In this document: piece after piece, positions 13,597 through 40,638 of the stretch | How the letters are laid out: each line of letters begins with the position of its first letter | Position numbering within the stretch: position 1 is the first letter of the stretch | Assembly: GCF_019711495.1 (NCBI RefSeq) | Contig: NZ_JAIGNM010000001.1 | Coordinates: forward strand, 992,001-1,056,000 | From: Qipengyuania xiamenensis | Lineage (GTDB): Bacteria > Pseudomonadota > Alphaproteobacteria > Sphingomonadales > Sphingomonadaceae | Direction of reading: 5' to 3' | DNA length: 64,000 bases | Translations under genes and position numbers: made by a program | The notes under the pieces: model-generated | Databases searched by the model: none | What the model was told of the DNA's origin: nothing | Seen by the model: the letters and a program-made list of their open reading frames with translations, nothing else

Positions 13597-14151
13597 ATGA
13601 CGCAGCGGGGCACAGGTCAGCCGGATACGGCACGGCTGTTCGACGAACTGCTGGTGACCCATGTCCAGTCAGGCGATCGCCGAGCCGCTGAACGGCTGGC
13701 GGGGCGCTGGCATCCGCGGCTCATGCGTACGGCGAACCGCCTTCTGCGCGACGAAGAGATGGCGCGATCCGCGGTACAAGACACGTGGATTTCCATCCTG
13801 CGAAGCATTGCGACGCTGCGTGATCCGTCGCGCTTCGCACCCTGGGCCTTTGGCATCCTGCGACGCAGGTGCGCCGATGGCATCAGGCAGGCGCAGGCCA
13901 GGCGATCGAGACTGGGAGAGATGCCGTCCGACGCGGCTACGCCGCCAACCGGCGAGGAAGCGATCGGGCTGCGCGAGGCATTCGACGCACTGCCCCATAA
14001 CCAGCGGTTCGCCGCGCAATTGTTCTTTGTCGAGGGCCTGACCCTCGCCGAAATCGCGGAGGTGCAGGACATTCCGACCGGCACTGCGAAATCGCGAATT
14101 TTCCATGCCCGCCAGAAACTGAAGGCGGCTCTAACCGGAGACGATCAATGA
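13597..14151 (+). CDS. ECF-type RNA polymerase sigma factor
   Basis: 184 residues. Region 2 (about 20-98) carries the RNA polymerase and -10 contacts, with RSAVQDTWISILRS and FAPWAFGILRRRCAD. Region 4 (about 128-180) holds the helix-turn-helix LTLAEIAEVQDIPTGTAKSR that reads the -35. There is no region 1 or 3, as expected for extracytoplasmic-function sigma factors. The stop overlaps the next start (ATGA), so the downstream membrane protein is its likely regulator. It is divergent from a winged-helix regulator 123 bp away. Confidence 0.9.
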   Translation: MTQRGTGQPDTARLFDELLVTHVQSGDRRAAERLAGRWHPRLMRTANRLLRDEEMARSAVQDTWISILRSIATLRDPSRFAPWAFGILRRRCADGIRQAQARRSRLGEMPSDAATPPTGEEAIGLREAFDALPHNQRFAAQLFFVEGLTLAEIAEVQDIPTGTAKSRIFHARQKLKAALTGDDQ

Positions 14152-14516
14152 CCGGAATCGACGACCAGATCAGCACTGCGCTAGACGAGGACGACAGGGC
14201 CTTCCTCGCCTCGCTCAACGAAGAGCGCGGCATGTTCCGCCAGATCGGCGACAGCATGCACGGACCGCTTGGCGGGTGGGCGAAGTTCAGTTTCGCGATC
14301 GCGATCCTGATCGGTATCGGCCTTGCCTATTCCTTCTTCAGGGCGGTCACCGCCGATGACCTGCAGCCGATGGTCGGCTGGGGCATGACCACGCTCGGCC
14401 TGTTGATCATGCAGGGCTTCCTGAAGGAATGGATGTTCGCCCGCATGAACATGCTGAGCGTGCTACGCGAGGTGAAGCGCCTGCAATTGCAGGTCTCTAT
14501 GCTGGAGAAGCGCTGA
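14148..14516 (+). CDS. Small two-helix membrane protein (DUF6768-like), possible sigma regulator
   Basis: 122 residues: a polar acidic N-terminus (1-40), two membrane helices (about 45-67 and 75-93) and a short cytoplasmic tail with a heptad-like helix (VLREVKRLQLQVSML). It resembles small proteins found after ECF sigma genes in sphingomonads that are classed as DUF6768, though I could not verify the family. The start codon overlaps the sigma factor stop by 4 bp. An anti-sigma-like role is inferred from this coupling only; no zinc-binding anti-sigma motif is present. Confidence 0.6.
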   Translation: MTGIDDQISTALDEDDRAFLASLNEERGMFRQIGDSMHGPLGGWAKFSFAIAILIGIGLAYSFFRAVTADDLQPMVGWGMTTLGLLIMQGFLKEWMFARMNMLSVLREVKRLQLQVSMLEKR

Positions 14517-36485: not shown

Positions 36486-37349
36486 TTATTCAGCCATGTC
36501 TTCGCTGACCGGCTCGGGCCGTTCATCATTGCCGCTCGATGCCGAGCCGCTGCCTTCGCCAGCGATCAAGGCGTTGCCGCTACCCCTGAGGTTGGCTGCC
36601 GGAATGGTGGTAAGTCCTTCGCGGCTCTCGACGACCACTTCGCGAACCTGGCCGCTACGCGTGGCGACGATGTCGCGAACATTTCCGAGCTGCTGGCCCG
36701 AGGGAAGGTTGACCGGCATTCCCGGTGCCACTGCAAAGGCGCCTTCGCCCTCGGCATCGCCACTGCCTGCCACGGCCAGCATGCCGTTACCGAGCGAGCC
36801 CGCACCCGAAGCCGCGCCGTTGGCCGAACCGGCAGCATTGCCTGCCTGGCCTGCAAGACCGGTGGCGCGCTCACGTACGGCACCGACAGCCGGAGTGGCG
36901 AGGTTGCGAACGGTCGAAACGCCGTCACGGGCACGGCCCACTGCGTCGCCAGCTGTGCTACGAACGGCATCCGTGCCGATCAGCTGGGCATTGGCATTGC
37001 CCGAACCCGATGCACTGCCCGAGCCCGAGGCATCGCCCGAGGCGGAACCCAGCGGGCTATCGATCAGCTGACTGGTGGTACCTTCGAGGCCCGCATCGAG
37101 CGAACGCGTCACAGAAACCTCGCCGGTATCGCGGTCGACATTCTGGTCGCCGTCGGTCGAAGCATTGCCACGTGCGGTGCCGCGGGTGATCGTGCTGATC
37201 CGGTCGGTCGAACCGCGCAGGGTGGTATCGACAGTGCCCCTGACAGTTCCGGTCACCCCGCCGAGGCCGCCGCCACTACCCAGGAGCTGAGCATGCGCCG
37301 GAGCCGAAATCAGGGTGAGAGCCGAAGCTGCGAGAATAAGATGTTTCAT
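36486..37349 (-). CDS. Secreted Gly/Ser/Ala-rich protein with a PRC-barrel-like segment
   Basis: 287 residues. Signal peptide 1-20 (HLILAASALTLISAPAHA), then a long low-complexity Gly/Ala/Ser/Thr-rich region (about 22-205) with several SGSGxA-type runs. Residues about 210-255 (MPVNLPSGQQLGNVRDIV and QVREVVVES) resemble a PRC-barrel domain, usually found in RNA-processing, photosynthetic and surface proteins. The C-terminal tail is acidic. An envelope or matrix role is likely, function unknown. ATG 37349 gives a better signal peptide than the start 18 bases upstream. Its neighbour is the secreted subtilase. Confidence 0.65.
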   Translation of the reverse strand: MKHLILAASALTLISAPAHAQLLGSGGGLGGVTGTVRGTVDTTLRGSTDRISTITRGTARGNASTDGDQNVDRDTGEVSVTRSLDAGLEGTTSQLIDSPLGSASGDASGSGSASGSGNANAQLIGTDAVRSTAGDAVGRARDGVSTVRNLATPAVGAVRERATGLAGQAGNAAGSANGAASGAGSLGNGMLAVAGSGDAEGEGAFAVAPGMPVNLPSGQQLGNVRDIVATRSGQVREVVVESREGLTTIPAANLRGSGNALIAGEGSGSASSGNDERPEPVSEDMAE

Positions 37350-37459
37350 GATGGTTTTCCCTTTCATCGTTTACGGATGCGAAGAGTGGTTGGTGCATCC
37401 GCTTGAAAGGAAAACGGGCGGGGTTCGCCGCTTAATCCATCTTTTCTGGAAAAACTTTT

Positions 37460-38680
37460 CTAGCGCCCGTCGCAGCGCCCGCAAACAAGGCCGCGCCCGT
37501 ACACGTCGTCATGGCCTTTCTTGCCAAGGTCTTCCGCCTCGCGGTCGAGTGCGCTCCGCCAGTCGCTTCCCTGCCCGATTGCCTGAGCGGCGCGTGCCGC
37601 GACCAGCGGGGTGGCAAATGACGTGCCGCGCAGCCTCATGCGCCGCCCCTTTGCATTGCGGCCATAAATGTCGGCGCCGGGGGCGGCATAATCGAGATGG
37701 AGCGCGCGCCCCGCCTCGATCAGGGCACGGCGCTTGCCATCGACAGCGGTAACCGCGACCACGCCCTCGTAGGAAGCGGGAAATGACGGCGGTGAGGCCG
37801 GTCCGTCATTCCCGACCGCGGCCACGATGACGACGCCCTTGCGCTGTGCCGAAGCGATGGCTCTGCCGAGCACAGGATTGCGCGGCCCGACGAGGCTGAT
37901 GGTCACCACCTTGCTGCCCCGTGTCACCAGCCAGCCGAGCCCCTTGGCCATCGCAAGCGCATTGCCGCCGGCTTTGTCGGTGCCATAGACGTCCGCCACA
38001 CGGATCGTCCCCGCACCAGCATAGGCGAGGAGCGAAGCCACCGCGCTGCCATGATTGCTCGGGTAAGGAGCGCCTTTTGCAAAGCCGCGTTGTTCGGCGA
38101 CTTTGACCGAGGAGCCTGTCGCACCGTCGATCATTCCTACCGGCGCACCAATCGAGTTCGGCGCGTCTGCCGCCAATACAAGGTTCGCAGCATCCGCGCC
38201 TCCGGCCTGGAAGTGCAGCGTATCGGCAGAAACTACGGCATCGGGCACGATAGCCTCCAGCTGCTTCTGCGCCTCGGCGAGTTTCATCCCTTCCGGCACA
38301 GAGAGCCGCACAAGCTGGAGATCCAGCCCTTCGACGCTTTCGCGCGAGAGGACGGTAAAGCCACGCTCGCCAGCAATTTCGAGAGCGGATTGCGAAGCGT
38401 CCATGACCAGCAGTTCGCCCTTGCGGGCAGGAGCGCCGTTCGCATCGAATTCGATCGCATCCCGATTGCGCCTGACCAGCCGGTCGATCCGGCGAAGGCG
38501 ATCGTTCGCAAGACGCTGCGTTTCCCGCTCTATTTCGCGCGTGGTCCGATCGAGCCTGTCGTCGATCTGGTCGACCACGCTCCCGACATCGGGAACGCCC
38601 ACGCGAGGCAGCGCGATCTGCGCAGCCAAAGGGGCGGCAACCATCGCCAGAAGCGCGGAAATCAGGGAAAACAATCGCAT
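37460..38680 (-). CDS. Secreted S8-family (subtilisin-like) serine protease
   Basis: 406 residues. Signal peptide 1-20, a charged coiled coil (about 32-75), a pro-like region (85-165) and the subtilase domain. The triad is visible: Asp185 (VGMIDGATG), His210 (SNHGSAVASL) and Ser354 (RGTSFATPLVA), with oxyanion Asn291 (AVGNDGPA). Four Cys are nearly absent except a C-terminal pair (VCGRC). It should be active in the periplasm or outside. It is divergent from an ECF sigma/anti-sigma pair across 108 bp, which suggests it belongs to that regulon or acts on the anti-sigma factor. Confidence 0.9.
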   Translation of the reverse strand: MRLFSLISALLAMVAAPLAAQIALPRVGVPDVGSVVDQIDDRLDRTTREIERETQRLANDRLRRIDRLVRRNRDAIEFDANGAPARKGELLVMDASQSALEIAGERGFTVLSRESVEGLDLQLVRLSVPEGMKLAEAQKQLEAIVPDAVVSADTLHFQAGGADAANLVLAADAPNSIGAPVGMIDGATGSSVKVAEQRGFAKGAPYPSNHGSAVASLLAYAGAGTIRVADVYGTDKAGGNALAMAKGLGWLVTRGSKVVTISLVGPRNPVLGRAIASAQRKGVVIVAAVGNDGPASPPSFPASYEGVVAVTAVDGKRRALIEAGRALHLDYAAPGADIYGRNAKGRRMRLRGTSFATPLVAARAAQAIGQGSDWRSALDREAEDLGKKGHDDVYGRGLVCGRCDGR

Positions 38681-38701
38681 CGGTCTGTCGTTACTCCACT
38701 A

Positions 38702-38739
38702 AAACGCATTAAGCATGGATGAAACGCATGCAGTCATCC
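38702..38739. promoter_or_regulatory. Repeats in the subtilase/ECF sigma divergent promoter region
   Basis: Two copies of AAACGCAT (38702-38709 and 38722-38729) are exactly 20 bp apart, two helical turns. Overlapping the second is an inverted repeat GGATGA-N11-TCATCC (38717-38722 and 38734-38739). Such spacing suits a dimeric regulator controlling both divergent genes. No promoter of known ECF type could be assigned with confidence. Confidence 0.4.
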
Positions 38740-38788
38740 GTTTAATCCGTGGAAGGCAAAGACACTGAGCACATCGTTCGAAACCGAT

Positions 38789-39253
38789 ATGCTGGCTTTG
38801 ATGCCCCGGCTGCGGCGTTTCGCGGTCGGGCTTGCCGGCAATCCGGCCGACGGTGACGATCTTTGCCAGATGACCATCGAGCGTGCGCTCACCAACCGTT
38901 CGAAGTGGACGGAGGGGACGCGGCTCGACAGCTGGACCTATCGGATCATGCGCAACATCTGGATCGACGAGGGCCGCAAGACCACCCGCAGGCACGAGAC
39001 CTTCGTCGCCGAGGAAGCAGGCGCAGGCGTCGGCGGCGACGGCGCACAGGAATCTGCGGTGGAACTTTCCAATGTCGACCGCGCCATGCAGAAACTGCCC
39101 GAAGACCAGCGCGAAGCCGTGCTGCTCGTGATGGTTGAAGGCTATGCCTACAAGGAAGCGGCCGAGATCGTCGGTTGCCCCGTAGGCACGCTGAATTCGC
39201 GCCTGGTACGGGGGCGAGACGCTTTGATGGGAATGCTGGGAGAAGCACAATGA
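38789..39253 (+). CDS. ECF-type RNA polymerase sigma factor
   Basis: 154 residues, near the minimum for the family. Region 2 (about 1-65) contains NPADGDDLCQMTIERAL and DSWTYRIMRNIWIDE; region 4 (about 95-150) contains LPEDQREAVLLVMVEGYAYKEAAEIVGCPVGTLNSRLVRGR. The linker between them is short and Gly/Ala-rich. The stop overlaps the next start (ATGA), and the product of that gene is a membrane-anchored anti-sigma candidate. It is divergent from the subtilase gene. Only one ATG fits, since the next upstream codons include no accepted start. Confidence 0.9.
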   Translation: MLALMPRLRRFAVGLAGNPADGDDLCQMTIERALTNRSKWTEGTRLDSWTYRIMRNIWIDEGRKTTRRHETFVAEEAGAGVGGDGAQESAVELSNVDRAMQKLPEDQREAVLLVMVEGYAYKEAAEIVGCPVGTLNSRLVRGRDALMGMLGEAQ

Positions 39254-39948
39254 GCATCACCCGCGAGGAAATCGCCGCCTTTGCCGACGGTCAGCTTTCG
39301 CCCGAGCGCGAGGCCGAAGTCGCCGCCGCAGTCGCCAGCGATCCTGCCCTTGCAGAGGAAGTCGCAAAGCACCGCGCCCTCAAAGCGATGCTGCAAGGCC
39401 ATTTCGCGCCGATCGCGGAAGAGCCGGTGCCCGAACACATGGCCGCGCTGCTTCGTCCCGAACCGCAGCCGGAAGTCGTAGATTTTGCAGCGGCGAAGGA
39501 GCGGCGCGAGGAGAAGCGCAAGCTGCCGAGCTGGGGTTGGGTCGCAGGTCCGGCACTGGCCGCTTCGCTTGCCATCGCGATTTTCCTGCCGCGAGGGTCC
39601 GACACGCCAGACGGCTACGCAGATGCGCAGCTTGCATCCGTGCTCGACCAGACGCTGGTTGCCGAACAGACCGGCAGCGCCGACACCCGCATACTGCTGA
39701 GTTTCCAGAACGACGACGCCGAGTTCTGCCGCGCCTTCAGTGCTCCCGACGGCGGCGGCATCGCCTGCCGCGACGACAAAGGCTGGCAGCTCGAGGCTTT
39801 GGGCGAAGGGAGCGAAGCTGCCAGCACCGATTATCGCATGGCGGGAGCTGGAGACGCCGATATCCTCGCGATCGCACAGGAACTCGCCCAAGGTCCCGCA
39901 CTCGATGCCGAAGCCGAAAGGAAAGCGCGCGAGGCAGGCTGGCGTTAA
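39250..39948 (+). CDS. Membrane-anchored anti-sigma factor candidate
   Basis: 232 residues. The N-terminal 50 residues (TREEIAAFADGQLSPEREAE) match the helical start of RsiW/ChrR-type anti-sigma domains that clamp the sigma factor, but no zinc-binding His/Cys set is present. One membrane helix (about 97-115) precedes a periplasmic domain (116-232) containing a Cys pair (EFCRAF and GIACRDD). This arrangement allows a signal outside the membrane to free the sigma factor by proteolysis. The start overlaps the sigma stop by 4 bp, and a strong terminator follows. Confidence 0.8.
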   Translation: MSITREEIAAFADGQLSPEREAEVAAAVASDPALAEEVAKHRALKAMLQGHFAPIAEEPVPEHMAALLRPEPQPEVVDFAAAKERREEKRKLPSWGWVAGPALAASLAIAIFLPRGSDTPDGYADAQLASVLDQTLVAEQTGSADTRILLSFQNDDAEFCRAFSAPDGGGIACRDDKGWQLEALGEGSEAASTDYRMAGAGDADILAIAQELAQGPALDAEAERKAREAGWR

Positions 39949-40119: not shown

Positions 40120-40464
40120 TTATTCGACGACGATCACCTCGCCGTAGCGATAGCCACGCTCGGCCATTTCCTTGATGTAGTGTTCGCGCTCTTCCTTGAG
40201 CTCGTGGCCGTATTCTTCCCAGGCATCGCGCAAGTCCTCGACATCGGACGCGCGGCGCAGGTCGCTGGTCAGTTCCTTCTGGGCCTCGGTGATGTCGATC
40301 CGGTAGTCGAACCAGAAGCGGTTCTCGATCCCGGCGATCGGGCTGGAAATGATCCGCGCTTCCTGATCCCGGGCATAGGCTTCCTCGTGAAGCATCGGGA
40401 TCGCTGCGGTCGCTGCAGTGGCGAGGCCGAGGGCGAGCATCGGCAGGGTTGCGGTGAATTTCAT
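40120..40464 (-). CDS. Small periplasmic protein of unknown function
   Basis: 114 residues. Signal peptide 1-20 (MKFTATLPMLALGLATAATA), then a mature part that is charged and helical (about 50-100: ITEAQKELTSDLRRASD, WEEYGHELKEEREHY), ending in a hydrophobic VIVVE. I recognise no family. A strong AAAGGAG ribosome site precedes ATG 40464 and a strong terminator follows, so it is a real, probably well-expressed single gene. It sits next to the ECF sigma group, but nothing else ties it to them. Confidence 0.75.
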   Translation of the reverse strand: MKFTATLPMLALGLATAATAAIPMLHEEAYARDQEARIISSPIAGIENRFWFDYRIDITEAQKELTSDLRRASDVEDLRDAWEEYGHELKEEREHYIKEMAERGYRYGEVIVVE

Positions 40465-40638
40465 GTCTTTCTCCTTTTGTGACCGGGCGCCATTGCGACC
40501 GGCTTGCAAGGAGAACGGATCGCGTCGCGGGTTTAATTCACGATGCGGGCAAATTTTTTGACGGCTTCGGAAATTTCGACCTTCGCAGAAGCATTCGTAG
40601 TTCTCGCCATGCCCCTCAAAACCGTCTAGGGGCGCGCA

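Follow-up and report, generated by a model that had tools for sequence, protein, structure and literature searches.

Whether a secreted protease encoded divergently from an extracytoplasmic function (ECF) sigma factor and its membrane anti-sigma factor sets that sigma factor free, or is instead made under its control, is the question raised by a locus of Qipengyuania xiamenensis (RefSeq assembly GCF_019711495.1, contig NZ_JAIGNM010000001.1). It lies within positions 992,001 to 1,056,000 of the contig, a stretch of 64,000 nucleotides referred to below as the window. The original prediction, made from the letters of the window, admitted both roles: the protease could cut the periplasmic domain of the anti-sigma factor and start its release, or be the main target gene. 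It is very probable that the sigma factor controls the protease gene, with this gene and the sigma operon in competition for a single site, because matches to a promoter-like motif, the conservation of a palindrome and the position of that palindrome between the divergent genes in all of the newly checked loci argue for it. Judged from the sequences compared, the locus is likely to encode an ECF26-like system of envelope response whose regulon is small and for the most part local; in this system the palindrome would act as two overlapping divergent promoters and the protease would be an output.

The palindrome between the protease and sigma genes

The protease and sigma genes are separated by a region with a 32-bp palindrome, GGATGAAACG-N12-CGTTTAATCC (38717..38748), read here as two overlapping divergent predicted promoters, one directed toward the sigma gene (38717-38742, plus strand) and the other toward the protease gene (38723-38748, minus strand), each of them a match of the motif described in the next section. 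The consensus of the palindrome is GGATKAAACG-N12-CGTTTMATCC. Each arm ends on its inner side in AACG, complementary to the opposing CGTT, and the symmetry pairs each -35 element with the opposite -10 element. Inspection by eye showed no consistent preference for T or G in one -35 element over the other.

Among 119 genomes of the family (Sphingomonadaceae), the exact palindrome is found in 29, in one place apiece, while the reversed pattern is found in none (0/119). All 29 fall among the 42 genomes with a match to the anti-sigma factor, and none of the 77 genomes without such a match carries it. When 396 genomes of the order, some of them already among the first 119, were taken as a second draw, 75 had the palindrome and 0 the reversed pattern; the carriers are members of the family, with none among the listed genomes of other families of the order. 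One genome of this draw (G555) holds two palindrome places and another (G706) four, the latter near contig starts. Thirty loci were returned by the second draw, 19 of them new to the analysis and checked for neighbours, and in 19 of 19 the palindrome sits between divergent S8 protease and sigma genes.

A long, near-perfect inverted repeat could also be the operator of a dimeric DNA-binding regulator rather than a pair of promoters. Sites with a single direction bear on this: those of the Gly/Ser-rich and small secreted protein genes retain GGATTAA and CGTT at equal spacing without a second arm and are thus promoter-like. Across 26 such sites of the PRC-like gene and 12 of the small gene, counted with those of the window and at up to 2 mismatches, conservation is seen in both boxes and is lacking in the second arm, a pattern that speaks for overlapping promoters rather than an operator. 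Moreover, promoters of the general stress sigma factor EcfG have the form GGAAC-N16-17-CGTT, and the distance of 22 nucleotides from the start of the -35 element to CGTT in the sites described here matches their spacing. An operator is, on these grounds, highly unlikely.

The shared CGTT element and the similar spacing raise in turn the possibility that the sites are promoters of EcfG itself, with the local sigma factor serving other genes. This is most improbable. The -35 element here is GGATTAA or GGATGAA, not GGAAC, and EcfG is to our knowledge general throughout the class, whereas the palindrome is limited, in the family, to genomes with the anti-sigma match (29/42 against 0/77). Some overlap would be no surprise, as the regulons of RpoE6 and RpoE2 (ECF15) overlap in Sinorhizobium meliloti, according to the relevant passages of PMC6180224.

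The history of the palindrome was followed in 58 loci, of which 54 have both an S8 and a sigma gene and 38 were labelled as having the palindrome or a close variant. The labels were assigned by hand, as for L095, L102 and L114 with GGAA arms and L088 and L090 with damaged arms, and L104 was counted as a palindrome although another repeat there scored higher. On the tree of the sigma factors the label requires 2 changes, compared with a mean of 13.9 after shuffling, and none of 500 shuffles was as low, which is compatible with a single origin. L118, a locus with tandem gene order, nests in the palindrome clade yet has no palindrome. The exact palindrome is also present in three loci of two other families (L185; L187 and L188), and these nest among members of the family of the window on the sigma tree, which may mean transfer.

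The predicted promoter motif and the regulon

The motif GRATTAANC-N13-CGTT was derived from the window itself and then applied unchanged to the relatives. An initial form with a spacer one base longer showed no enrichment and was replaced by the N13 version. In the 2.8-Mb genome the motif has three exact matches, which precede the protease gene, the gene of the Gly/Ser-rich protein and that of a small secreted protein adjoining the anti-sigma gene. The two outside the palindrome are the predicted sigma promoter of the Gly/Ser-rich gene, GGATTAAGC-N13-CGTT (37413..37438, minus strand), and that of the small secreted protein, GAATTAAAC-N13-CGTT (40514..40539, minus strand). Seven matches in the genome have one mismatch, and one of these faces the sigma gene.

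In 40 relatives, selected for having both anti-sigma and S8 matches, the motif with up to one mismatch is found upstream of the protease gene in 30 and upstream of the sigma gene in 33; among loci with a PRC-like gene it precedes that gene in 19 of 28, and among those with the small gene it does so in 8 of 11. At this stringency 90 sites fall within 31,059 upstream strand-bases, as against 7 in 1,087,021 elsewhere, and the exact motif has 43 sites in the upstream windows and 0 elsewhere. The suggestion that the Gly/Ser-rich protein may be part of the output is supported by the same motif standing upstream of its gene, in the window as in most of the relatives having it. Across the family the exact motif occurs in 37 of 119 genomes, 28 of them among the 42 with the anti-sigma match.

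Genomes with the anti-sigma match contain 11 exact sites away from the locus, five of which were inspected. Two of them (L174 in G062 and L178 in G084) stand before genes of secreted, barrel-like proteins that share 42% identity, the one from G084 having a weak likeness to PF11383 and PF13557, both under the cut-off; downstream of the remaining three lie short or doubtful frames. For the G084 protein, 14 matching places are present in 13 of 119 family genomes, and a protein of this type lies inside the fetched S8/sigma locus in 12 of 65 sequences searched (L079, L112, L113, L114, L116, L118, L150, L151, L152, L154, L186 and L188). The window has no such protein, and a weak homologue elsewhere in the genome has no motif. 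The barrel-like protein is a recurrent, not a constant, partner of the system.

The genes of the locus and their association

The secreted S8 (subtilisin-like) protease (37460..38680, minus strand) has 406 amino acids and a hydrophobic N-terminus. It matches PF00082 with 65.8 bits (cut-off 21.8) and has the full triad first noted, Asp185, His210 and Ser354, together with Asn291; with an Asp-His-Ser triad within the PF00082 domain it belongs to peptidase family S8, and the nearest solved structures are subtilisins.

The ECF sigma factor (38765..39253, plus strand, 162 amino acids) contains sigma70 regions 2 and 4, and its translation probably begins at a CTG codon, eight codons before the ATG (38789) first proposed. 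Start codons were inspected individually in a 17-member clade of the sigma tree holding the window (support 99/99). The position of the CTG is occupied by CTG in 15 of 17 members; L083 has GTG there and L094 has ATC. A Shine-Dalgarno-like stretch precedes this position in the clade, while the ATG is not conserved. In most of the other 17 sequences, candidate starts (ATG, GTG or TTG) lie six to eleven codons upstream. The codon pattern of the clade, together with the CTG annotated in RefSeq as the sigma start of the homologue in Novosphingobium sp. ES2-1, is the reason for preferring CTG 38765. The gap between the protease and sigma genes, given in the original prediction as 108 bp, has that length if counted from the ATG; counted from the CTG favoured by the homologues, it is 84 bp. 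A CTG start may hold the level of the sigma factor low.

The end of the sigma gene overlaps the start of the gene of the membrane anti-sigma factor (39250..39948, plus strand, 232 amino acids). The latter has a single helix, the best hydrophobic window beginning at residue 95, and its sole two cysteines, Cys160 and Cys173, are located C-terminal to the helix; having only these two, the protein lacks a Cys-based zinc motif, as had been noted at first. Both cysteines and Trp231 are invariant across 26 aligned sequences. The anti-sigma domain is seen through sub-threshold matches alone (PF03872, PF13490 and NF052375). The structure model is poor (mean predicted local distance difference test score, pLDDT, of 57.1) and was left out of the fold search, and the sequence profile gave a single weak match among solved structures, NepR, at E 0.03.

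Two further secreted proteins are encoded on the protease strand. The Gly/Ser-rich one (36486..37349, 287 amino acids) matches the PRC-barrel family PF05239 with 17.8 bits, under the cut-off, and its Novosphingobium homologue in the same position carries a PRC-barrel annotation. These four genes stand as originally outlined, with their coordinates; to them is added the gene of the small secreted protein (40120..40464, 114 amino acids), which lies outside the region first outlined and belongs to the locus. Its model has three helices (mean pLDDT 75.2) and gave no match in a fold search at E up to 0.001, the weak hits including the zinc-resistance protein 3lay. Elsewhere in the window, at 13597-14516 (plus strand), another ECF-like sigma gene (184 amino acids) overlaps a frame of 122 amino acids with hydrophobic stretches, which could be its partner.

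The anti-sigma factor has matches in 47 places in the 42 family genomes, and 42 of the 47 places have a neighbouring S8 match when the match tables are compared by hand. The co-occurrence of protease and sigma genes in relatives, set beforehand as a check, is thus found. The window protease has no match in the fetched stretches of the remaining five places (G011:C58, G048, G061, G079 and G023), of which that in G061 is on a contig of just 6.9 kb. A profile search with the anti-sigma factor over the class gave matches in 88 of 289 genomes. Outside the family, 17 of the 18 best places were fetched, one of two in G244 being omitted, and 13 of the 17 stretches contain an S8 gene, with none in L196, L197, L198 and L201. 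A search of named genomes with the single anti-sigma protein returned eight loci. Those of Qipengyuania xiapuensis, Erythrobacter and Croceicoccus have the palindrome within one mismatch (7/7), and the eighth, from Bordetella (L155), has an anti-sigma match of 59 residues and no S8 gene, motif or palindrome. Two S8 matches on plasmids were inspected, in Novosphingobium sp. ES2-1, where the palindrome has two mismatches, and in Sphingomonas parapaucimobilis, where it is exact; in both loci the anti-sigma and sigma genes are divergent from the S8 gene.

The genome of the window has a second S8/sigma/anti-sigma set (C1:759007-761429, L117) in tandem order with an GGAATAAAC element before its sigma gene; this element is also present in L114. 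The place in G011 mentioned above (C58:111000-123000, L179) has an anti-sigma factor 44% identical to that of the window and a sigma match confined to residues 81-153, with no match to the window protease and no palindrome, and looks like a remnant of the system.

The pattern of association bears on the other role first proposed, that of a site-1 protease which, itself driven by the sigma factor, cuts the periplasmic part of the anti-sigma factor and leaves a site-2 protease to finish, closing a positive loop; such a role is compatible with the protease being a target. The S8 gene accompanies anti-sigma factors whose match covers the periplasmic part; the places matching over the N-terminal domain only (G048, G061, G079 and G023) have none in the fetched stretch, and the genome encodes a site-2-type protease (PF02163). 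Nevertheless, the correlation may reflect mere orthology, the profile matches in L196 and L201 reach the periplasmic part with no S8 gene nearby, and the bacterial site-1 proteases listed in the relevant part of PMC7593790 are DegS, DegP, SipS, SipT and Prc, not subtilases. Cleavage of the anti-sigma factor by this protease is accordingly regarded as unlikely.

Comparison with known systems and proposed mechanism

The closest known parallel is found in S. meliloti, where, as the passages of PMC6180224 on this system state, RpoE6 of group ECF26 and the serine protease SMa0142 are encoded divergently, a gene order with wide conservation across the group. Overexpression of RpoE6 is reported to have raised 40 genes, SMa0142 being among the most prominent targets and rising together with ecfR6; the ECF26 consensus is given there as GGAATA/GT, and the activation mechanism of the S. 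meliloti ECF26 sigma factors is termed hypothetical. In comparison with pSymA, the window sigma factor shows 42% identity to RpoE6 across 156 residues, the window protease 30.7% to SMa0142 across 339 residues (38.4% for the protease of the second copy, L117), and the anti-sigma match to EcfR6 spans 59 residues, both proteins being downstream membrane anti-sigma factors. The two systems share traits of ECF26: a sigma factor limited to regions 2 and 4, and downstream of it a membrane anti-sigma factor with an N-terminal anti-sigma domain, one helix and a periplasmic C-terminal domain, a divergent gene for a serine protease of family S8, and a -10 element containing GT (CGTT in the sites described here). 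They differ in that the published SMa0142 promoter does not form the palindrome of the window, and in regulon size, 40 raised genes against three exact motif matches. The system is therefore best called ECF26-like and would work as the RpoE6 type does. The view of the protease as a sigma target, one of the two first put forward, draws on the three exact motif matches in the genome, on their conservation in relatives and on the response of SMa0142 to RpoE6 overexpression.

Several observations weigh against this reading. The three exact matches are partly circular, the motif having been written from the window; at up to two mismatches the motif is not enriched there (6 matches against 4.46 in shuffles), and the remaining 6 one-mismatch matches are located elsewhere in the genome. 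The exact single motif also occurs in 9 of the 77 family genomes without the anti-sigma match, and 12 matches to the reversed motif turn up in 9 of 119 genomes; by these counts, isolated exact sites outside the locus occur roughly as often as expected by chance. The palindrome is missing from 16 of the 54 S8/sigma loci, and in the second draw only 12 of 30 genomes of the genus of the window carry it. Finally, the -35 element of ECF26 is GGAATA, and that of the main clade is GGATTA or GGATGA.

Two other systems are partly alike. The sigma70 bidirectional promoters of Escherichia coli are also pseudo-symmetric sites at which polymerase has two exclusive orientations; there, however, the -10 element is shared and the distance between starts is usually 18 bp, with 10 and 23 bp common as well, while in the palindrome no symmetric -10 is shared, each -35 element overlaps the opposite -10 element and the sigma factor is of the ECF type. 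Basal activity of the E. coli promoters is too low for interference, and strong activation of one direction can repress the other, as described in the sections of PMC12825309 on these promoters. Group ECF54 has a subtilase in its conserved sigma neighbourhood and is described in the corresponding section of PMC8999054 without an anti-sigma factor, which is present here.

In the proposed mechanism the anti-sigma factor would, as is usual in its family, tether the sigma factor to the inner membrane until an envelope signal inactivates it. RNA polymerase with the freed sigma factor would recognise promoters of the form GGATKAA-N15-CGTT, which precede the Gly/Ser-rich PRC-like gene, the small secreted gene and, in some relatives, the outer-membrane-barrel-like gene. 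It would occupy the palindrome in one of two orientations, so that transcription would run into the protease gene in the one case and into the sigma/anti-sigma operon in the other, and protease output would be coupled to sigma autoregulation via this single shared DNA site. By analogy with the E. coli promoters, the two directions would interfere only under high sigma activity. A stronger version, in which the palindrome is an orientation switch that sets how much output is made relative to feedback, with the protease also making the first cut that removes the anti-sigma factor, is decidedly unlikely.

Beyond the known ECF26 kind, the new part is the control DNA, that is, the motif and the palindrome. 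The titles and opening lines of abstracts listed in the literature search contain no palindromic or overlapping divergent ECF promoter and no such sphingomonad system, the founding ECF classification being outside this search, so that an earlier description is possible; nor is the system described in the relevant passages of PMC8103513, PMC8315932, PMC10202637, PMC3238334 and PMC6599016. With very few exact matches of the motif in each genome, the regulon that it predicts can be checked gene by gene. A promoter with interlocked -35 and -10 elements, retained though the sigma factor has diverged widely, would offer a compact natural case for the study of polymerase competition, and for how a stress sigma factor balances its own synthesis against its output.

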